Shown here one piece after another: positions 5,182-16,856 of a stretch of DNA of 23,556 bases. The translations under genes were made by a program, and so were the position numbers. The stretch comes from a virus. Within the stretch, counting starts at the first letter, position 1. Each line of letters opens with the position of its first letter. The notes beneath the pieces were generated by a model. It was not told the DNA's origin. It saw only the letters and a program-made list of their open reading frames with translations, and did not search any database. The stretch lies in the IMG/VR virus record IMGVR_UViG_3300032224_000012, positions 1-23,556 of that record; one strand, written 5' to 3'.

Positions 5182-5958
5182 ATGACTGAAGAAGTCCAAC
5201 AAAACCTAGCGGAAGTTGACTCCGCGCCAGTTCCTGAAGTGACGGCCACTTCTGAGACTGAAGTTCAAACGTCGGAAACGCCAGAAGTAGTATCTAAGAC
5301 CTTCACACAAGAAGAGTTAGACGCTGCCATAGGCAAACGCCTCGCAAGAGAGCAACGTAAGTGGGAAAGAGAACAAGCAAATCGCCAGTCTGAACAACAG
5401 GTGATGAAAGCTGCGCCAACTGCATCCGTTGATCAGTATGAAAGCCCAGAAGCCTATGCGGAAGCATTGGCCTATCAAAAGGCTGAAGAACTGATTGCTA
5501 AACGTGAATCAGCCAAACAGCAATCTGCCGTTCTTGAAAGTTATCACGATCTTGAAGAAGAAGCTCGGACTAAGTACAGCGATTTTGAACAAGTTGCGTA
5601 TAACCCCAAGCTACCAATTACAAACGTGATGGCAGAAACGATCCAGTCTTCGGACATTGGACCTGAGTTAGCATACTACTTAGGTTCTAATCCCAAAGAA
5701 GCAGATCGCATCTCACGCATGACGCCACTTGTACAGGCGAAAGAAATTGGGAAGATTGAGGCTAAATTAGCATCTGATCCACCAGTTAAAAGAACAACGT
5801 CAGCGCCAGCACCTATTTCGCCTGTCACTGCTCGATCTACAGGATCGCCAGCTTATGACACTACGGACCCACGGTCTACCAAGACTATGACGGACTCGCA
5901 GTGGATTGAAGCTGAACGCAAACGACAGATGAAAAAGTGGGAATCGCAGACTCGCTAA
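5182..5958 (+). CDS. Putative capsid scaffolding protein, 258 aa
   Basis: The gene lies directly upstream of the coat protein, the usual scaffold position. The protein is acidic and low-complexity at the N-terminus (Glu, Val, Thr, Ser, Pro, residues 1-38). It is then strongly helical with the frequent scaffold motif FTQEELDAAIGKRLAREQRK around residues 41-60. A central helical segment follows, with a Pro/Ser/Thr linker around 195-225 and a basic C-terminal helix (WIEAERKRQMKKWESQTR). In P22 a basic C-terminal helical segment binds coat protein, which fits this layout. It has no cysteine and no catalytic motif. Scaffold proteins co-assemble with coat into procapsids and exit before DNA packaging. 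Identity rests on composition, length and position. Confidence 0.8.
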   Translation: MTEEVQQNLAEVDSAPVPEVTATSETEVQTSETPEVVSKTFTQEELDAAIGKRLAREQRKWEREQANRQSEQQVMKAAPTASVDQYESPEAYAEALAYQKAEELIAKRESAKQQSAVLESYHDLEEEARTKYSDFEQVAYNPKLPITNVMAETIQSSDIGPELAYYLGSNPKEADRISRMTPLVQAKEIGKIEAKLASDPPVKRTTSAPAPISPVTARSTGSPAYDTTDPRSTKTMTDSQWIEAERKRQMKKWESQTR

Positions 5959-5982: not shown

Positions 5983-7191
5983 ATGTCTAACAGTATTCTG
6001 ACCATTGACATGATCACTAGAAAAGCTCTCGAAATCCTCGAGAACAACCTAGTGCTCACCCGTAACGTGAACCGCCAGTACGACGATAGCTTTGCTGTCG
6101 AAGGTGCAAAGATCGGTTCAACCCTTCGTATCCGTTTACCTGACCGCGCTTTGGTGACTGACGGTGCAGCCTTGCAAGTGCAAGATGACAACGAGCAGTA
6201 CACCACTTTGTCTGTAGCTAGCCAAAAGCACATTGGTGTCAATTTCACATCTGCTGAATTGACCATGCAATTGGATGACTTTGCAGAACGTGTGTTAAAG
6301 CCTCGTATCAGCCAGTTGGCCTCCAGCATTGATGCTGACGTTGCTAACTGCTTCAAGACTATTGGCAACTCGGTCGGCACGCCTGGCACCACCCCAGCCA
6401 CTTCTTTGGTTCTGTTGCAAGCTCAACAAAAACTGAACGAAAACGCTGCTGTGATGAGCCCACGCTACGCTACCGTCAACCCAGCTGCTAACGCTGGTTT
6501 GGTCGAAGGCATGAAAGGCTTGTTCAATCCCACCGACACCATCAGCAAGCAGTTCAAGAACGGCATGATGGGCACCGGCGTGTTGGGCTTTGACGAAATC
6601 AACATGTCTCAGTCGATCAAGCAGTTCACCACTGGTTCGCGCGATGCTTCCGCTTCCACAACCACCAGCGCTGCTGTGACCGCTGAAGGTTCGTCTACCC
6701 TGACCTTGGCTCAAGGTTCGGTGACTACAACCATCAAAGCTGGTGACGTTTTCACAATCGCAAGCTGCTTCTCTGTGAACCCACAAACCCGTGAAACCAC
6801 TGGTTCGTTGTTCCAGTTCGTGGCCTTGGTTGATGCTACTGCTGTGTCCGGCACTTGGACTGTAACTGTTGCTCCTATGTATTCCGCTGCTCACGCATTG
6901 GCTACTATGGACACATTGCCAGCAACCAGCAAAGCTGTGACCTTCTTGGGCACTGCTTCTACTGCTTACCCACAAAACTTGGTTTACCACAAGGATGCAA
7001 TCACATTTGCTACTGCTGACTTGTTGTTGCCACAAGGTGTTGACATGGCTGCCCGTGCCGTTCATAACGGTATCAGCTTGCGCGTTGTTCGTCAGTACGA
7101 TATTAACAATGACCGTATGCCTTGCCGTATTGACGTACTGTATGGCTACAGCGCAATCCGTCCACAAATGGCTTGCCGCCTTTGGGGCTAA
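5983..7191 (+). CDS. Major capsid (coat) protein, P22 gp5-like, 402 aa
   Basis: AAAGGA precedes the ATG. The sequence opens MSNSILTIDMITRKALEILE and continues NNLVLTRNVNRQYDDSFA, then GAKIGSTLRIRLPDRALV, the pattern of the P22 coat protein family (HK97 fold). Its length of 402 is close to the 430 of P22 coat. A Thr/Ser-rich segment about residues 212-315 (TTSAAVTAEGSSTLTLAQGS) sits where P22 coat carries its inserted I-domain and strongly resembles small beta domains. The C-terminus has CRIDVLYGYSAIRPQMACRL, also typical. The coding sequence uses more C-ending codons than the fibre genes, consistent with high expression. A hairpin follows the stop codon at once. Confidence 0.92.
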   Translation: MSNSILTIDMITRKALEILENNLVLTRNVNRQYDDSFAVEGAKIGSTLRIRLPDRALVTDGAALQVQDDNEQYTTLSVASQKHIGVNFTSAELTMQLDDFAERVLKPRISQLASSIDADVANCFKTIGNSVGTPGTTPATSLVLLQAQQKLNENAAVMSPRYATVNPAANAGLVEGMKGLFNPTDTISKQFKNGMMGTGVLGFDEINMSQSIKQFTTGSRDASASTTTSAAVTAEGSSTLTLAQGSVTTTIKAGDVFTIASCFSVNPQTRETTGSLFQFVALVDATAVSGTWTVTVAPMYSAAHALATMDTLPATSKAVTFLGTASTAYPQNLVYHKDAITFATADLLLPQGVDMAARAVHNGISLRVVRQYDINNDRMPCRIDVLYGYSAIRPQMACRLWG

Positions 7192-8435: not shown

Positions 8436-9152
8436 ATGGCCACATATTCGGCTGGCGATCAAATCAATAGGGCATTGCGATTGCTTGGCGTGTTAGCTGA
8501 AGGTGAAACCCCATCGGCATCGGTTTCGCAAGACTCACTCATGGCTTTAAACCAGATGATTGACTCTTGGAATACAGAGAGACTTTCTACTTTTGTAACT
8601 CAAGATCAAGTGTTTACTTGGCCTGCTGGTTACATTTCTCGTGATCTTGGACCAACTGGTGACTTTGTTGGCTTGCGTCCTATTTTGATGGATGACGCAA
8701 CTTATTACAGAGACCCTGGCACGAATGTGTCGTTTGGCATTAAATTTATTAATCAACAGCAATATGATGGCATTGCTGTTAAGACAGTAACTTCCACATA
8801 CCCACAAGTTTGTTGGGTAAACATGGGGTTTCCTGACATTACTTTGACCATTTATCCAAAGCCCACACGAGACTTGGAATGGCATTTTATTTCGGTGCAA
8901 GAACTAGATCGCCCTGCTGACTTGTCCACAGTCATGTATTACCCACCAGGCTATTTGAGAGCTTTCACCTACAACTTGGCAATGGAAATTGCACCTGAGT
9001 TTGGCGTAGAACCAAGTTCACAAGTGCAACGCATAGCCATGACATCTAAGCGCAATCTCAAGCGCATCAACAACCCTGATGACGTAATGTCGATGCCTTA
9101 CGCACTAGTTGCAACTCGTCAACGCTTTAACGTCTACGCAGGCAATTACTGA
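8436..9152 (+). CDS. Head-tail adaptor, P22 gp4-like tail accessory factor, 238 aa
   Basis: AAGGAG precedes the ATG. The opening AGDQINRALRLLGVLAEGET followed by SQDSLMALNQMIDSWNTERL matches the start of the P22 gp4 / tail-accessory adaptor group. The segment YYPPGYLRAFTYNLAMEIAP corresponds to the later conserved helix of that family. P22 gp4 is about 166 residues, so this protein is longer; the extra is a beta-rich middle part (residues 45-150). In P22, gp4 binds the portal ring first and prepares it for gp10. The next gene here is the gp10-like hub, joined by a one-base stop/start overlap, which supports the assignment. Confidence 0.8.
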   Translation: MATYSAGDQINRALRLLGVLAEGETPSASVSQDSLMALNQMIDSWNTERLSTFVTQDQVFTWPAGYISRDLGPTGDFVGLRPILMDDATYYRDPGTNVSFGIKFINQQQYDGIAVKTVTSTYPQVCWVNMGFPDITLTIYPKPTRDLEWHFISVQELDRPADLSTVMYYPPGYLRAFTYNLAMEIAPEFGVEPSSQVQRIAMTSKRNLKRINNPDDVMSMPYALVATRQRFNVYAGNY

Positions 9153-10618
9153 TGAAAACGCCAATTCTGGGATCAGCGTATGTGGCACGCAGTGTGAACG
9201 TTGCGGATGCCCAGATGATCAACTTGTTTCCAGAAATCATTCCAGAAGGCGGTACAGAACCTGCGTTTCTAAACCGTGCCCCAGGGCTAAACTTTTTGCA
9301 AACTGTGGGCACTGGCCCTATTCGCGGTTTGTGGGCGCATCAGACTAATGGCTCGGATTTTTATGTTGTATCTGGCGTTGAAGTTTACAAATTAACAGAT
9401 TTGACCAGCACGCCAGTCAAAATCGGCAATGTATCGGGCACGGGTCCAGTAAGTATTGCTGACAACGGCGCAGTCATTTTCTTTGCTTGTAATGGTCCAA
9501 GTTATACCTATTACGAACCGACAGGCGCGTTTGATCAAATTACAGACGCTAACTTCCCTGGCGCTGTCACGGTTAGTTACATTGACACCTTGTTTGTGTT
9601 TAACGAACCGAACAGCCAACGCATCTGGAGCGTGGACACCATTAACCCTGCCAACGGTGACTACATTTACCCATTGGTGTTTAACGCCTTGGACTTCTCA
9701 TCTGCTGACGGATCGCCTGATGGTGTGGTGGCGGTCAACGCTGACCACCGTCAGCTATGGGTTTTTGGTACTGACTCCACTGAGGTTTGGTACAACGCAG
9801 GGCTTGCCAACTTTCCGTTAACGCCCATTCAAGGCGCGTTTAACGAGATTGGATGTGTGGCTTCTTACTCGGTTGCCAAGCTCGACAACACCTTATTCTG
9901 GCTAGGCACAGATGCCCGTGGCCAAGGTATTGTTTATCGGGCTAATGGATACAACGCAGCTCGTGTATCTACACACGCTGTGGAATATGCAATTGCCCAA
10001 TACGGCAACATTTCTGATGCTTTGGCATATACCTATCAAGAAGAAGGCCATTCTTTCTACATGCTGACCTTCCCAAGTGCTAATGCAACTTGGTGCTATG
10101 ACGTAGCGACACAGGCATGGCATGTTCGAGCAGGATGGGTGAATGGCAGTTTTACCCGTCACCGTAGCAACTGCCAATGTAACTTTGGTGGAAACATCGT
10201 TGTTGGTGACTTTGAGAATGGCAACATTTATACATTAAATCTTGGTGTGTATGCCGACAATAATCAACCACAAAAGTGGCTGCGCTCTTGGCGTGCATTG
10301 CCAACAGGCACCAACAATTTGAAGCGCACTGCCCAACACAGCCTACAACTTAATTGTGAGTCTGGAACAGGGCTAAATGATGGACAAGGCAGTGACCCAC
10401 AGGTCATGTTGCGTTGGTCAGATGATGGCGGTCACACTTGGTCAAACGAGCATTGGTCACCAATGGGCAAGATTGGCGAGTATTACAGGCGCGTCTTTTG
10501 GAGGCGTTTGGGCATGAGTTTAAAGTTGCGTGATCGGGTCTATGAGCTTTCAGGTACTGACCCCATCAAGATTGACATTGTAGGCGCTGAACTTATTCTT
10601 TCACCAACGAATGCGTAA
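9152..10618 (+). CDS. Tail hub / packaged-DNA stabilisation protein, P22 gp10-like, 488 aa
   Basis: The ATG at 9152 overlaps the preceding TGA by one base. The beginning, SAYVARSVNVADAQMINLFP followed by EIIPEGGTEPAFLNRAPGL, is the typical start of the P22 gp10 family, and 488 residues is close to the 472 of P22 gp10. The body repeats beta-propeller-like blades (for example FVVSG/DFYVVSGVEVYKLTD, RQLWVFGTDSTEVWYN, HSFYMLTFPSANATWCYD). The C-terminus RRVFWRRLGMSLKLRDRVYE is also characteristic. In P22, gp10 forms the hexameric tail hub that plugs the filled head and carries the tailspikes. It should interact with the gp4-like product upstream and with the spike anchor at 1997-2473. Confidence 0.85.
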   Translation: MKTPILGSAYVARSVNVADAQMINLFPEIIPEGGTEPAFLNRAPGLNFLQTVGTGPIRGLWAHQTNGSDFYVVSGVEVYKLTDLTSTPVKIGNVSGTGPVSIADNGAVIFFACNGPSYTYYEPTGAFDQITDANFPGAVTVSYIDTLFVFNEPNSQRIWSVDTINPANGDYIYPLVFNALDFSSADGSPDGVVAVNADHRQLWVFGTDSTEVWYNAGLANFPLTPIQGAFNEIGCVASYSVAKLDNTLFWLGTDARGQGIVYRANGYNAARVSTHAVEYAIAQYGNISDALAYTYQEEGHSFYMLTFPSANATWCYDVATQAWHVRAGWVNGSFTRHRSNCQCNFGGNIVVGDFENGNIYTLNLGVYADNNQPQKWLRSWRALPTGTNNLKRTAQHSLQLNCESGTGLNDGQGSDPQVMLRWSDDGGHTWSNEHWSPMGKIGEYYRRVFWRRLGMSLKLRDRVYELSGTDPIKIDIVGAELILSPTNA

Positions 10619-11706
10619 TGGGCGTACAAAACAATCAAATTACTGCACCTCGTGTTGACCTCATTGATGAGAACACGGGGAAGATTAGGCGCGAGTGGTA
10701 CATGTTTCTGTACAACCTGTACACCATTACAGGATCAGGATCAGGGATTATTGCGGTTGTTAACGGTGGCACAGGCTTAGGAACGATTCCTACCAATGGC
10801 CAACTGCTAATTGGTAATGGCACAGGCTACGCTTTAAACACGCTCGGCACTGGTGCGGGCATCTCAGTTACCAATGGCGCTGGAACAATAGTTGTTGCCA
10901 ACACTGGCGTATTGTCAAACATAGCTGGTACAGGCATTTCTGTATCTGGCGCAACTGGCAATGTCACCATTTCCAATACAGGCGTATTGAGCTGGTCCGG
11001 CGGCTCAACTGGTCTAACTCCAGCTACAGCCACCACAGGCGCAATTACTTTGGGCGGTTTGTTGGCAATTGGGTATGGAGGCACAAATGGAATAGCTACT
11101 CCTACGGCTGGTGCTATCGCTTACGGTACTGGCACTGCGTATGGATTTACTTCCGCAGGCAGTTCTGGGCAAGTATTAACGTCTGCGGGTGCTGGCACTC
11201 CAACTTGGACAACGCCAACAACAGGTACAGTAACTAGCGTTTCGGTTGTTTCTGCTAATGGCTTTGCAGGGACAGTAGCCACAGCGACAACAACGCCTGC
11301 TATTACGCTGACAACCAGCATTACTGGCGTGCTTAAAGGCAATGGCACAGCAATTTCGGCAGCGGTGGCTAATACCGATTACGTACCTCTTTCCACGGTT
11401 TTAACTAAAACAGCCGATTACACAATTACAGGCACAGACACTTGGATTATCAACAACAAGACTGGATCGGCGTTGACGTTGACGTTTCCAGCGGCTTCAT
11501 CTTGGACTGGTCGGTCAATCACGGTCAAAAACATGCAGGCGCAGGCAGTCAATTCAGCGTCTAGCAATATTGTGCCAATTGACAGCACAACGGCTGGAAC
11601 TGCTATCCTATTGGGGGTTGTGGGAAATTGGGCGACAATGGTATCTGACGGTACTAATTGGGTGATCATGCAAGCAGCGTCCAACAACAACTTGCTATTG
11701 GAGTAA
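10618..11706 (+). CDS. Gly/Thr-rich tail fibre or needle-position protein, 362 aa
   Basis: The ATG overlaps the TAA of the gp10-like gene by one base. The first 40 residues are unlike the rest (APRVDLIDENTGKIRREWYM followed by FLYNLYTITGSGSG) and probably dock to the virion. They are followed by about 215 residues of imperfect Gly/Thr/Asn repeats (VNGGTGLGTIPTNGQLLIGN, TGAGISVTNGAGTIVVANTG, TGISVSGATGNVTISNTGVL) suggesting a beta-structured fibre shaft. A C-terminal globular segment from about 260 includes DTWIINNKTGSALTLTFPAA and WATMVSDGTNWVIMQAASNN. The gene occupies the position of P22 gene 26 (tail needle), but the sequence is not the coiled-coil needle of P22; a fibre or needle replacement is inferred. 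Confidence 0.65.
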   Translation: MGVQNNQITAPRVDLIDENTGKIRREWYMFLYNLYTITGSGSGIIAVVNGGTGLGTIPTNGQLLIGNGTGYALNTLGTGAGISVTNGAGTIVVANTGVLSNIAGTGISVSGATGNVTISNTGVLSWSGGSTGLTPATATTGAITLGGLLAIGYGGTNGIATPTAGAIAYGTGTAYGFTSAGSSGQVLTSAGAGTPTWTTPTTGTVTSVSVVSANGFAGTVATATTTPAITLTTSITGVLKGNGTAISAAVANTDYVPLSTVLTKTADYTITGTDTWIINNKTGSALTLTFPAASSWTGRSITVKNMQAQAVNSASSNIVPIDSTTAGTAILLGVVGNWATMVSDGTNWVIMQAASNNNLLLE

Positions 11707-11709
11707 CTA

Positions 11710-12174
11710 ATGCAAGTAACTTATGGCAAAGAATTTGAAATTGAAAAAACCGAGTCTATGAAAGATAAGGTGGATTTACTTCAGACTGAATTGATGAAAT
11801 TGCCACAGTATCAGCCAGAGACAAAGCATTATTTTCATGGTGGTATGTATTGCCGTGAAGTTTTTCGCCATGCAGGGGTATTGGTTGTAGGCGCAGTCCA
11901 CAAAAAAGAACATTTGTATTTGATTGTGTCTGGTACGGTATCAATCACGACCGATGATGGCGCTCAGAAGATTACAGGTCCACATTTGTTTTTGAGTAAA
12001 CCAGGCACAAAAAGGGCTGTTTACGCTGAAACAGACGCAGTTTGCATGACTTTTCATGTAATGGACAAGAAATCGGTTGAAGAAGCTGAAGCCGAATTAG
12101 TAGAAATAGAGGAAAATACGATGTATCTTTCTGGCAATGTAATTAAGCAAGAAGTTTTGGAGGTGTCACCATGA
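11710..12174 (+). CDS. Cupin-like protein in the virion gene cluster, 154 aa
   Basis: TTGGAG precedes the ATG. Residues 61-79 (GAVHKKEHLYLIVSGTVSI) fit cupin motif 1 with His64, Glu67, His68 and Gly75. Residues 90-116 resemble motif 2 with Pro98-Gly99, but the usual metal-binding His after PxG is absent (Arg102-Ala103). Additional His at 40, 43 and 54 could contribute. Cupins are small beta-barrels, often metal enzymes or sugar binders. The C-terminal 30 residues are helical and acidic (KKSVEEAEAELVEIEEN). It sits between the fibre protein and the first ejection protein, the location of gene 14 in P22, and overlaps the next start by four bases. A structural or assembly use of the fold is as likely as catalysis. 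Confidence 0.65.
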   Translation: MQVTYGKEFEIEKTESMKDKVDLLQTELMKLPQYQPETKHYFHGGMYCREVFRHAGVLVVGAVHKKEHLYLIVSGTVSITTDDGAQKITGPHLFLSKPGTKRAVYAETDAVCMTFHVMDKKSVEEAEAELVEIEENTMYLSGNVIKQEVLEVSP

Positions 12175-12878
12175 CATTCTGGGTCGCAGGAGCTGTTGTA
12201 GGCTCATCACTTATTGGTTCAAATGCGGCTAGTCAAGCCGCTAGTACGCAAGCCGACGCGGCAAACCGTGCGGCGGATTTGCAATATAAGATGTTTCAAG
12301 AGCAACAAACTGCTCAGGCACCGTTTAGGGCGGCGGGTGAAACTGCGTTAAACAAACTAATTCCAGAAGCCACAAATTACACGCCTTTTAGCTATAGTTC
12401 TATGACAGCTGACCCTGGCTATCAATTCCGATTATCAGAAGGAATGAAAGCCTTAAGGCACAAAGCAGGTGCTGGTGGCGGTTTAGTTTCTGGTCAAACG
12501 TTAAAAGGTTTGCAAGACTACGCACAAAGTTCCGCGTCTAATGAATATACAAATGCATTTAATCGTTACCAAACTGAACGCGCAGCTCGACTAAACCCGT
12601 TGCAATCTTTGGCAGGCGTGGGTCAAAGCGCAGCCAACACAATTGGCGCAAATGCAGGAACTTATGGAACAAACGTAGGTAATCTGATGACTGGCGGCGC
12701 GGCGGCGCAAGCGGCTGGTCAAGTTGGAACAGCCAATGCTTTGACTGGAGGTTTGGGTACATATTTAAATTACAACCAAGGCAATAACTTAGTTGCGGCT
12801 TTGCGTGGCGGTAGTGGGTATCAAATGCCACAAGGGTATGGTAATGTCGTAAGCGATCCTTACGCAAACATGGGTTAA
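12171..12878 (+). CDS. DNA ejection/transfer protein, P22 gp7-like by position, 235 aa
   Basis: ATG is inside an ATGA overlap with the previous stop and has GGAGGTG upstream. The N-terminus is hydrophobic (WVAGAVVGSSLIGSNAASQA) followed by an Ala/Gln-rich helix (STQADAANRAADLQYKMFQE), a well-known arrangement in small phage ejection proteins annotated as DNA transfer proteins. The middle contains PFRAAGETALNKL and the motif YQFRLSEGMKALRHKAGAGG, also typical of this group. The rest is Gly/Ala/Asn-rich and flexible. Such proteins leave the virion and line or seed a channel across the cell envelope. The call rests on motifs plus position as first of three ejection genes. Confidence 0.75.
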   Translation: MTFWVAGAVVGSSLIGSNAASQAASTQADAANRAADLQYKMFQEQQTAQAPFRAAGETALNKLIPEATNYTPFSYSSMTADPGYQFRLSEGMKALRHKAGAGGGLVSGQTLKGLQDYAQSSASNEYTNAFNRYQTERAARLNPLQSLAGVGQSAANTIGANAGTYGTNVGNLMTGGAAAQAAGQVGTANALTGGLGTYLNYNQGNNLVAALRGGSGYQMPQGYGNVVSDPYANMG

Positions 12879-12887
12879 GGAATAAAT

Positions 12888-14375
12888 ATGGCACTTGAAC
12901 CTTCTATAGCACTTGGCGTAAAGCCAATACAAATCGCCGATCCTTTGGCCCAGTATGGCCAAATTTCAGCTATTCAAAACGCGCAAAATCAAAACGCATT
13001 AGCGCAATTTCAACTCAGCTCTGCACAACGCCAAGAAGCGGCGCAAAACGCTTTATCTGAATCGTATAAATCCGCGTTTAATCCTGAAACAGGCAAAATT
13101 AACGAGCCTATGCTATTAAGAAGTTTGGCCGAAAGAGGCGCAGGGCATATGATTCCTGATGTACAAGCTAAATTGTTAGCTACTCAAAAGGAACAAGGGT
13201 TAATTAAAAAGACTGGCCTTGAAGCATCTGGCCTTGAATTTAAACAAAAAGTTGACAAAGCTAATAAAGCCATATCAGACATTGCGTCATTAAATAGCCC
13301 TCAAGAAGCGATTGCCAGTATTGACGCGCATTTGGCTAATGGCGACATTGATCAACAAAAAGCAGATATGCTTAAAACGCAAGTAACGCGCGCGCCTTCG
13401 TTTGTTGATTGGCAAAAAGGTATGCTGGTTAATATTTTGGACGCTAAAGACAAGTTGACAATGACAGCGCCAAAAATCAGTCGTCAAGAGGCTGGCGGCG
13501 CTATTATCAACATTCAAGACAACCCATTGTTGCCTGGCTATGGTAAACCTGTTGAAGGCATGGCAAACATTGCTAAGACCGCCACCCCAGGCGAAATGCT
13601 GGTAGATGCCCGCGCGCGCGAACGCCTTGCCGCTGAACAAGCTACTGGTGTATTGACGCCCGCGTCTATTGACACCGCCGCTGAAATTTATCGCCAAACT
13701 GGCCAAATGCCTATCGGTGGTATTGGCAAAGGCGTGGCTAACATGCGCGCGCAGATTATGAACCGTGCTACTGAAATGGCGGCGGGCAAAGGCATCACGC
13801 CTGCCGATACGGCAGCGAACATGATTGTGGCCAAGCAAGATGTTGGCTCGCAAACTAAAGCGCTTAAAGATTTCAGCACCGGCATTCAAGGTCGTCAAGT
13901 CAACGCGTTTAACACCGCTATTGATCACTTGGGCACGATGGACAAACTGTCTGATGCTTTGGCCAATAACGATATTAAAGCGTTTAACGCGCTAGGCAAT
14001 ATTGTTGCGCGTCAAACAGGCAGTCCAGCACCTACTAACTTTGACGCGGCCAAACAGATTGTTACTGCTGAGGTTATTAAAGCTGTGGTGGCCAGTGGCG
14101 GTGGCGTGACTGAGCGTCAAGAAGCCGAACGTAACTTTGCTGCGGCTAACAGCCCAGAACAGCTTAAAGGCATTATTGGCACTTACAAGCAATTGCTTGG
14201 TGGTCAATTAAACAGCTTGAATTTGCAATATGAAAACACAACAGGTCGCAAAGATTTTGACAAGAAATTAACTGATGAAGCCAAAAACGTAGTTAAACAA
14301 TTGCGCGGGTCGGCTGGCGGCGGCGCGGCGCCAGCAGGCGGCGTTGACACAAGCAATCCATTGTTAGCAAAGTAA
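12888..14375 (+). CDS. DNA ejection protein, P22 gp20-like by position, 495 aa
   Basis: AAGGAAT precedes the ATG. The protein is nearly all helix, Ala/Gln/Asn/Lys-rich, and starts with the recognisable internal-protein pattern ADPLAQYGQISAIQNAQNQN followed by ALAQFQLSSAQRQEAAQN. No membrane segment stands out and there is no Cys. A linker rich in Gly and Ala ends the protein (GSAGGGAAPAGGVDTSNPLL). P22 gp20 is 471 residues, similar in size. It belongs with the neighbours on both sides as a set of internal head proteins that are injected ahead of the DNA. Sequence-level homology to P22 gp20 is not claimed. Confidence 0.7.
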   Translation: MALEPSIALGVKPIQIADPLAQYGQISAIQNAQNQNALAQFQLSSAQRQEAAQNALSESYKSAFNPETGKINEPMLLRSLAERGAGHMIPDVQAKLLATQKEQGLIKKTGLEASGLEFKQKVDKANKAISDIASLNSPQEAIASIDAHLANGDIDQQKADMLKTQVTRAPSFVDWQKGMLVNILDAKDKLTMTAPKISRQEAGGAIINIQDNPLLPGYGKPVEGMANIAKTATPGEMLVDARARERLAAEQATGVLTPASIDTAAEIYRQTGQMPIGGIGKGVANMRAQIMNRATEMAAGKGITPADTAANMIVAKQDVGSQTKALKDFSTGIQGRQVNAFNTAIDHLGTMDKLSDALANNDIKAFNALGNIVARQTGSPAPTNFDAAKQIVTAEVIKAVVASGGGVTERQEAERNFAAANSPEQLKGIIGTYKQLLGGQLNSLNLQYENTTGRKDFDKKLTDEAKNVVKQLRGSAGGGAAPAGGVDTSNPLLAK

Positions 14376-14384
14376 GGAATCAAA

Positions 14385-16856
14385 ATGGCTGACTTATCCA
14401 GCATCCTGACTGATCCTAACTACGTCAACGCAAACGCTGCTACCAAGCAAGCGATCTTTGATAAGTTTTCAGCAAACGATACAAACTTTACCGGCGCTAA
14501 TCCTGCGACGCAGGATGCCATCCGTGTAAAGTTTGGTGTTGCGGGTATGCCTGCGCCGGCAGTTACCGGCGTTGACGCCATCCCTGGACAACGGTCTATA
14601 TCTAGGGCTGAAGCGCCTTTGTCTACATCTGAAAAGATTCGCGGCGCCATTGAAACGCCGTTTGCTGTTGGTGCCAATTTGATTTCGGGGCCAGTTACTT
14701 ATCTGGCTGGCGCGTTGGGCCCAGAAGCCCAACAAGCAGTTGCGCGCAATATTCAATACCAACCCCGCACACGTGTGGCACAAGACGTGTTAGAAGGCAT
14801 TGGAAGAACCGCTGAAGGTCTACCACCTTTTATGCCTACTATGGGTGTAACAAATGCGTTGCGTACAGCAACTCGGCCATCAGTAAATGTTTTGGCTGAA
14901 GAAGGCCAAATGATTAAGAGCGCAGTTGGCGCGCCGTTTGAGCAACGCGCAAATGCCTTGCAACAAGAACGCGTCGCGCAAAGCGTACGCAACGCACCTC
15001 AGATTGAAGCCGCGCAAAAAGCGGCTGAGTTGGGCATTGTGCTAAACCCTGCGGCATCTAACCCCACCAAGATGAACAAAATCAAAGGTGTGGTCATAGG
15101 CAACAAAGCCGTTGACACCAAGGCCGCCGCGTTGAACGACACGCGCTGGGGCGAGTTGGCCAAAGAAGAAATGGGCTTATCTGCTGACACAGTGCTAGAT
15201 AAAAAAGCATTTGAGACTGCACGCGATAACGTCAGCGCCCCGTATCGTGTCATTGAAAAAATGCCTGCTTTAACGCCAACGCAAGAAATTGGGATTGCGC
15301 TAGACAAATTACGCCAAAGTGAAGAATTGATTGGCGGTGCTAAAACTAAAGCAGCGATTGATCTATTGGTAGACGACGCCATGAACAAAATTGGCGGCGG
15401 TATGTCTGGCAATCAAGTTATTAAAAACATTCGCCAAATGCGAAACGAAGCGCAAGACATTTATCGGTCCAAAAAAGCAGGCGCAGCTTTGTCACCTGAA
15501 GAAATTGCAACTGCTGACACTAAGCTAGGTATTGCTAATAGCCTTGAAGCGTTGATTGAATCAAACATTCAAGACCCTAAAGCGCTAGATGACTTTAAAA
15601 AAGCGCGTGTTGCTATGGCCAAAACGTATGCGTACGAAGCTGCCACAGACATGAATACGGGCAAACTTGACCCTATGGCTATCGCTAAGATAACCGCAGG
15701 CGATAACAATTTGACAGGAACCATCGCTGACATTGGCAAGATCGCGGGTAACTTCCCCGAAATTGCTAAGGCAGGCACTGTTGCAGATCGCTACTTGCCT
15801 ACCCTAAGTCGTTCGGGCATAGGCGGTTCAGCCGGATATGCTATCGGTAGCTTGTTTGGCGCGCCGTTGACAGGCAGTATTGCAGGTGCTGCGATAGGTG
15901 GTTTGGTAAGTGCTGGCGGCGCTAAAGGCATGACTAGCCCCGCGTATCAATTAGCGCGTGCTGTGCCGACTGACTATCGCCCCCCAGTCAACATGTTGCG
16001 TCCAGCTAATATCAACTATGGGCCTAACCAGTTGACGCCGTACGATTACGGTCAGACTGCCGAAACACCATACCGTCCAAATTGGACGCCTGGTCAACCC
16101 GAAGTTAATTTCCCGCCATCCGCGCAGTACGCGGGGCCTGCACCAACGCCGCCACAACTTTCTGCGCCGTCAGCAGAAGGCACTATGGCTTCTATAGCTG
16201 CAGAGCGCGCGCGTCGCTACAACGTAGAAAAAGCAATGAATGAAGCGCCTATCGGAACGCCCCCTACGGCGATAAACCAAATGGCGTCTGTGCTTGAACA
16301 ACAAAACAAACCTCGCGGTGGTGGTTCAGTTATTGAAATTGACCCCGTAACCGGCAAAATGAGCGTCGGTGCTGAAGCCACCAAAGGTATGACACCTAAC
16401 ATTCAAGTAATTGAAAGTACAGGCGCTAATTTACAATCGGCGTCGCAAAAAGTTTCTGCAGGCAAATTGTTTGATTTAACTGCTGCAGAAAAAGTGGCGC
16501 TAGAAAAAACCAAAATTGATTTGGCCAACGCTGGCCCTGAGTTTGCCAAACTGACCGACAAAGCCATATCGGCTAAAATGATGGACCGCGAATGGGTTGA
16601 TGGCGCAATTGTTAAAGCGCGCCAGCAAGCCAACGCATTTGAAGCTATTGCCGCCCGCGCGGCTGATGAGCGCTCTCGTCAGGCCGCGCTGGTAAAGCGC
16701 GAGCAGATGATGGATTTGCTTGATACGCTTGAACAACAGTTCAGCAAAGAACGCCCAGCAACCAAAGGCGCGCAAGGTCCTAAGACCCGCGCCGCCCAGC
16801 GCAACGCTTTGCGTCCCACTGAAGCTGAAATTAAAAATAAGTTGAATGAACCATGA
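14385..16856 (+). CDS. Large DNA ejection protein, P22 gp16-like by position, 823 aa
   Basis: AAGGAA precedes the ATG. The N-terminus holds two tandem copies of a short helical motif (NYVNANAATKQAIFDKF and NFTGANPATQDAIRVKF, residues about 12-50). Long Ala/Lys/Glu helices follow. A glycine-zipper hydrophobic stretch at about residues 475-510 (GIGGSAGYAIGSLFGAPLTG followed by SIAGAAIGGLVSAGG) could insert into a membrane. A Pro/Tyr/Asn-rich region about 520-600 looks extended. The C-terminal third is again helical and basic. This design fits the largest ejection protein that helps form the trans-envelope conduit. It is longer than P22 gp16 (609 residues). No lysozyme or transglycosylase motif was seen. 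Its stop overlaps the next start by four bases. Confidence 0.75.
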   Translation: MADLSSILTDPNYVNANAATKQAIFDKFSANDTNFTGANPATQDAIRVKFGVAGMPAPAVTGVDAIPGQRSISRAEAPLSTSEKIRGAIETPFAVGANLISGPVTYLAGALGPEAQQAVARNIQYQPRTRVAQDVLEGIGRTAEGLPPFMPTMGVTNALRTATRPSVNVLAEEGQMIKSAVGAPFEQRANALQQERVAQSVRNAPQIEAAQKAAELGIVLNPAASNPTKMNKIKGVVIGNKAVDTKAAALNDTRWGELAKEEMGLSADTVLDKKAFETARDNVSAPYRVIEKMPALTPTQEIGIALDKLRQSEELIGGAKTKAAIDLLVDDAMNKIGGGMSGNQVIKNIRQMRNEAQDIYRSKKAGAALSPEEIATADTKLGIANSLEALIESNIQDPKALDDFKKARVAMAKTYAYEAATDMNTGKLDPMAIAKITAGDNNLTGTIADIGKIAGNFPEIAKAGTVADRYLPTLSRSGIGGSAGYAIGSLFGAPLTGSIAGAAIGGLVSAGGAKGMTSPAYQLARAVPTDYRPPVNMLRPANINYGPNQLTPYDYGQTAETPYRPNWTPGQPEVNFPPSAQYAGPAPTPPQLSAPSAEGTMASIAAERARRYNVEKAMNEAPIGTPPTAINQMASVLEQQNKPRGGGSVIEIDPVTGKMSVGAEATKGMTPNIQVIESTGANLQSASQKVSAGKLFDLTAAEKVALEKTKIDLANAGPEFAKLTDKAISAKMMDREWVDGAIVKARQQANAFEAIAARAADERSRQAALVKREQMMDLLDTLEQQFSKERPATKGAQGPKTRAAQRNALRPTEAEIKNKLNEP

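Follow-up and report, generated by a model that had tools for sequence, protein, structure and literature searches.

In phage P22, the late genes run in the order gp10-gp26-gp14-gp7-gp20-gp16, and gene 14 fills the slot between the needle gene and the first ejection gene. P22 gp14 is a 151-residue DUF2824 protein (PF11039; positions 8911–9366 of the P22 locus, L098). T7 gene 13 occupies the same slot before T7_gp14, and its product (PF11090) is annotated as a 'probable scaffold protein'. The parts of the literature that were searched do not say what either P22 gene 14 or T7 gene 13 does. A separate line of annotation concerns the protein family catalogued as PHROG 12032 and NCBI PHA00672, whose members include bbp23 of BPP-1, gene 4 of VvAW1 and proteins of VPMS1, Shewanella phage X14 and Alteromonas phage H4/4. 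In the available text of the VvAW1 genome paper, the member carries no name beyond 'hypothetical phage protein, PHA00672' (PMC3558961). The portions of the literature covered by the search listed no paper that connects a phage cupin with DNA ejection. The protein described here belongs to the same sequence family as these members and mostly shares their gene neighborhood.

The window, which is the whole stretch of DNA analyzed, spans a 23,556-base virus record and contains a P22-like late morphogenetic operon. All of the genes described lie on the plus strand. The operon encodes a scaffolding protein (5182–5958; phrog_8865, E 3.8e-29), a P22-type coat protein (5983–7191; PF11651, E 4.1e-39), a gp4-like tail accessory factor (8436–9152; phrog_637, E 1.3e-9, with PF11650 below its cut-off), a gp10-like nozzle or head closure Hc3 protein (9152–10618; phrog_578, E 2.3e-120) and a fibre-like protein at the position of the gp26 needle (10618–11706; phrog_31660 tail fiber, E 3e-6). 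These genes are followed by a 154-residue cupin-fold protein with an ATG start (11710–12174) and a gp7-like DNA ejection protein (12171–12878; phrog_598, E 1.8e-36). The next two proteins, at 12888–14375 and 14385–16856, are assigned to the gp20 and gp16 positions by their location, and neither has a convincing PHROG or Pfam family match. The window order of gp10-like, fibre-like, cupin, gp7-like, gp20-position and gp16-position genes agrees with that of P22. Thus, the cupin ORF occupies the slot of P22 gene 14 directly before the gp7-like gene, as a sequence-only reading of the window had proposed.

The cupin gene is closely interlocked with its neighbors. A GGAG stretch at the end of the preceding gene (11700–11703), 6 nucleotides 5' of the ATG, is its likely ribosome-binding site. 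The likely ribosome-binding site of the gp7-like gene, GGAGG, lies within the cupin gene (12159–12163), 7 nucleotides 5' of the gp7-like start codon. The cupin stop codon overlaps that start codon in an ATGA sequence (12171–12174), which likely reflects translational coupling of the two genes. The same gap of −4 is the commonest spacing between cupin and next ORF in the family, observed in 21 of the 55 representatives whose next ORF is directly adjacent.

The ORF at 11710–12174 is confirmed as a real gene and is not a chance reading frame, because it has relatives in IMG/VR and in phage records, matches a PHROG and exhibits a low pN/pS (median of 0.20 in 32 comparisons). Cupin relatives are encoded in 163 IMG/VR stretches, and the family is carried by 64 INPHARED phage records (E <= 0.01). 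A search of genome contigs with the cupin yielded one relative, on a contig of a Rhodoferax MAG. Residues 7–138 of the 154 match PHROG 12032, 'short tail fiber protein', with an E value of 3.1e-38 (131.7 bits), and further matches are found to PHROG 24280, 'tail fiber adhesin', and PHROG 34170. The window cupin is a new member of an already catalogued family, from which it does not differ in any essential respect.

The sequence-only reading had described the product as a cupin-like barrel, and structure prediction bears this out. Fifty-two aligned sequences, taken from the window and from viral contigs, yielded an AlphaFold2 model with a mean pLDDT of 85 and a pTM of 0.74. Foldseek matched the model to 480 PDB chains at E <= 0.001, with a best E value of 6.5e-7 and with 3d82, 3fjs and TM1459 as the leading entries; the best 50 matches are mostly annotated cupins, RmlC-like proteins and cupin-fold enzymes. 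A second structural aligner returned HP0902 with a Z score of 10.2 (rmsd 2.3 over 86 residues) and DddK, Sthe2323 and KdgF with Z scores of 9.4–9.6, and D-lyxose isomerase is also among its matches. The product is thus predicted to be a single-domain RmlC-like cupin barrel, that is, a double-stranded β-helix. The window protein reaches no curated cut-off of the Pfam cupin families (AraC_binding, 16.9 bits vs. the 21.1 needed), does not match Cupin_2 and matches cNMP_binding below threshold. Cupin_2 is touched by 24 of the 52 alignment members (best E 0.00069, irrespective of the curated cut-off). Among solved structures, phmmer identified no entry with sequence similarity, and a profile search produced a weak match to 1sfn (E 0.045). 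The predicted fold is shared with TM1459, KdgF, DddK and HP0902, which are small metal cupins or cupin-fold proteins, at sequence identities of 5–18% among the structure matches listed.

The window cupin differs from the small metal cupins in its putative metal site, where two of the usual four ligands are missing and, at a third position, His stands in place of Glu. The canonical site comprises a motif 1 of the form HxH...E and a motif-2 His, and its register on the window sequence was assigned in this analysis. In this register, Ala62 replaces the first His of motif 1, His64 is the second, His68 occupies the Glu position and Arg102 stands at the motif-2 His (A/H/H/R at positions 62/64/68/102). 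The earlier description of a partly kept metal motif, with His64 and His68 in place and the motif-2 His absent, thus holds. Conservation was assessed in 71 cupin representatives below 82% identity (62 of the main type and 9 of the BPP type), a set that excludes the window itself (L081) and a fusion locus (L007); the cupin HMM matched nothing in loci L098 (P22), L261-L264 and L276. Position 62 is His in 2 of the 71 and position 102 in none; instead, the motif-2 position holds R or K in all 62 main-type proteins and Q, R or A in all 9 of the BPP type. Arg49 and Gly75 are invariant. His64, His68 and His116 are kept in 50, 55 and 57 of the 62 main-type proteins and in 1, 0 and 0 of the 9 BPP-type proteins, respectively. 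By this alignment, the canonical metal tetrad is complete in no representative, the main type could have a three-His site, and the BPP-1 type would have lost it.

These residues bear on whether the cupin is a catalyst. One explanation, which we consider doubtful, is that the cupin enzymatically modifies the ejection protein or another virion protein and is thus a counterpart of the GNAT, SET and Asp/Asn hydroxylase proteins that occupy the same slot elsewhere. The joint retention of His64, His68 and His116 in 43 of the 71 representatives may mean that a metal or ligand site persists, which would point to catalysis. The tetrad that is never complete and the 8 of 71 proteins with none of the three His residues argue against it.

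The association of the cupin gene with the ejection module was evaluated at two distances. Of 343 relatives retrieved with the gp7-like protein of the window, the best 80 were kept. These are close relatives, and in all 80 loci a cupin ORF immediately precedes the gp7-like gene, so that co-occurrence with gp7-like genes, which the sequence-only reading had named as a check, holds among them. Among the 71 more diverse representatives, 55 have a directly adjacent downstream ORF, 11 have none adjacent and 5 have no downstream ORF found. The gp7-like protein of the window, P22 gp7 and 54 of the 55 downstream ORFs (all but that of L260) were scanned against PHROG. In counts per family, not a union, these 56 proteins matched phrog_598 'DNA ejection' 47 times, phrog_21132 'DNA ejection' 4 times, two internal-virion-protein families 2 times each and a virion structural family once. 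In most of the 71 representatives, the gene that directly follows the cupin encodes an ejection or internal-virion protein. VPMS1, Dickeya phage Amaethon and PH1, whose gene orders are not P22-like, show the same arrangement. Two T7-like phages encode the cupin between tubular protein B and the T7_gp14 gene (PF24072), which is the slot of T7 gene 13. In a separate observation at L007:2827-3873, a cupin and a gp7-like protein are joined in one continuous frame, apparently through a deletion at the junction; because it comes from one metagenomic contig, this fusion may be an artefact. The slot can also be empty or filled otherwise. In seven prophage loci with phrog_598 and a readable upstream region, the upstream gene is a cupin in two (one of which, G001, is a genome found through the cupin search itself), a hydroxylase in one and a gp10-like gene, a fibre-like gene or nothing clear in four.

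This tie bears on the family label. The cupin could instead be a structural component of the virion, such as a short tail fibre or an adhesin, in keeping with its name in PHROG and in several GenBank records; we regard this as quite unlikely. The names of PHROG 12032 and 24280 point to such a role, as do the phage X14 record, which reads 'Unknown function structural gene', and the position of the cupin after fibre-like genes in some phages. Against it, the cupin gene travels with the ejection genes and is well conserved. In loci chosen by cupin similarity, which biases the comparison, its median identity is 74.7% over the full length (29 of 29 loci), vs. 56.4% over one third of the length for the fibre-like gene (25 of 29 loci); the corresponding values for the gp7-like, gp10-like and gp4-like proteins in these loci are 57.9%, 66.7% and 79.6%. 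Moreover, the accessible part of one paper notes that the recent annotation of an RmlC-like cupin in Ralstonia phage phiAP1 as a short tail fibre was made without experimental validation (PMC8703784). An experimental basis for the label 'short tail fiber protein' was not found in the sections of the literature searched. The fibre label is poorly supported and finds no support in this analysis. The link of the gene to the first ejection gene makes it more likely that the cupin helps to prepare injected proteins than that it forms a fibre.

A minority of the family is found elsewhere. In 9 of the 71 representatives (BPP-1, Foturvirus and seven prophage loci that resemble the BPP-1 arrangement), the cupin gene is near the portal gene and not before an ejection gene, so contact with gp7 is no family-wide rule. 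BPP-1 has the order terminase, GNAT, cupin, bbp22 and portal, the last of which is annotated as a head-tail adaptor, and Foturvirus H4/4 carries the cupin between RNA polymerase and portal. A profile of bbp24-type GNATs matches 7 of the 9 portal-side loci, six of which belong to its training set. In the accessible portion of the JG068 paper, the HHpred table lists a GNAT at gp29 (PMC3765740). By gene number, RNA polymerase (gp27) and portal (gp32) flank this GNAT, as they flank the cupin of Foturvirus.

Many cupins are sugar isomerases or dioxygenases. The occurrence of KdgF and D-lyxose isomerase among the fold matches, together with the relatives near the portal beside a GNAT gene, would fit a cupin that acts on a host metabolite, a surface sugar or a host protein and merely sits in the late operon. 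Such a role is improbable. The cupin gene overlaps tightly with the gp7-like gene in most relatives, its position recurs across different architectures, and its metal site is degenerate. A surface-sugar substrate, which the sequence-only reading had offered as one option, receives no support from this analysis.

The other occupants of the slot were compared with the cupin. An AlphaFold2 model of P22 gp14 (20 sequences, pLDDT 87) was assigned to the GNAT fold by Foldseek (probability 1.00, best E 4.4e-9 vs. SpeG) and aligned with an aminoglycoside acetyltransferase at a Z score of 16.3 (rmsd 2.3 over 144 residues). P22 gp14 is thus predicted to be a GNAT. It resembles the window cupin in its slot between the gp26 position and gp7 and in its length but differs in its predicted fold, and since gp14 is a predicted GNAT, the cupin would be a replacement and not a homologue of gp14. 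Homology between the two proteins was considered and rejected: hhalign gave a probability of 1.2, no PF11039 match is found in the window, the gp14 profile matches 0 of 245 cupin loci, and the cupin profile matches 0 of 160 gp14 loci (plus strand only for the gp14 loci). With shallow alignments, gp14 exhibits no profile similarity to T7 gp13 or to bbp24-type GNATs. T7 gp13 appears GNAT-like by eye only, and no sequence relation between it and the window cupin was shown.

The CoA motif of GNATs, [RQ]xxGx[GA], is absent from 20 of 20 P22 gp14 sequences and 14 of 16 T7 gp13 sequences in a plain regex search; because 3 of the 6 GNAT matches of this pattern fell outside the expected place, it was relied on only for its absence in gp14. 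The missing motif makes these occupants look non-catalytic, which weighs against the cupin as a catalytic modifier. The available part of a virion proteome of the T7-like phage phiPsa17 names gp6.7, 7.3, 8-12 and 14-17 as detected and does not name gp13 (PMC4517105), which fits a factor that stays outside the particle.

Other slot proteins favor modification. An Asp/Asn β-hydroxylase lies directly before the gp7-like gene in prophage L520 (2126–2857; PF05118, 30.5 bits) and directly before an ejection gene (phrog_21132, E 9.5e-49) in MW202665 (40.2 bits). Pseudomonas phage PfAn1 has the order hydroxylase, acetyltransferase (GNAT) and gp7-like gene. In Limnohabitans phage DC33, a terminase-like gene (weak PF03237) and the portal gene flank a hydroxylase and GNAT pair, which mirrors the GNAT and cupin pair of BPP-1. 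In a clade of fusions, a cupin and a C-terminal SET domain form one ORF of approximately 280 residues (Pfam SET, E 3.4e-8 in L093 and 2.5e-7 in L306); these fusions (L306-L309, L314, L317, L319-L322, L324, L093 and L094, some cut by contig ends, with SET judged by eye except in L093 and L306) are mostly still placed directly before an ejection gene where the order is readable.

Several observations on these records stand apart from the slot. Asp/Asn β-hydroxylase genes occur in phage morphogenetic operons at L520:2126-2857, L525:3989-4543, L526:3989-4615 and L527:4001-4597. They either immediately precede an ejection gene, stand two genes ahead of one, or lie close to the portal with a GNAT as neighbor. 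A stretch at 1613–1807 near the VP1/VP2 genes of gokushoviruses (KM589511, KT264815 and NC_027645) matches residues 179–241 of the hydroxylase ORF in L520 (47.7%). The DC33 record (PQ492659, L526) is filed under Inoviridae and encodes a podovirus-type portal (PF12236, E 5.4e-187), so its taxonomy looks wrong. OR850267, a 1,889-base 'Staphylococcus phage' record, contains an 88% match to P22 gp14 over 42 residues and is likely a contamination.

A broader proposal would unite these proteins. Podoviruses may have a companion slot before the first ejection gene, with another close to the portal, where the unrelated folds of GNAT, cupin, cupin-SET and Asp/Asn hydroxylase proteins, alone or paired, interchange because all of them modify, or descend from modifiers of, the same virion protein. 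The window cupin would then provide a post-translational modification step in ejectosome assembly. We consider this proposal rather unlikely.

The explanation that we favor, tentatively, is that the cupin is a binding or assembly factor that serves the ejection module in a P22-like podovirus. It is preferred because of where the gene lies, its coupling to the gp7-like gene and the way the cupin stands in for P22 gp14 and T7 gp13. The cupin would be made together with the gp7-like protein and bind it, and could either keep it soluble or competent for loading around the portal in the procapsid or modify it. Afterwards, the cupin would probably be left out of the particle, much as T7 gp13 seems to be. 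The corresponding task in P22 probably falls to gp14, which would make the two proteins analogous occupants of the slot. The lost ligands speak for binding, and the three kept His residues and the real enzymes in the slot speak for modification. Adjacency of genes is common in operons and is no proof of contact, and this role is assigned from sequence, position and predicted folds. The earlier suggestion of a capsid or tail assembly factor built on a cupin fold survives in its first part, in that an assembly factor is the better-supported alternative; its assignment to capsid or tail does not, since the tie is to the ejection module.

The best reading of the cupin is that it assembles or modifies the first ejection protein and occupies a slot in which unrelated enzyme folds replace each other. 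The cupin itself belongs to a known family, and the exchange in the slot is the more interesting part. For the family, the result would correct the label 'short tail fiber protein' that has been spread by automatic annotation. For podoviruses, the slot holds a predicted GNAT in P22 and an unrelated cupin here, which raises the question of whether ejection proteins must undergo an enzymatic or chaperone step prior to loading into the head.
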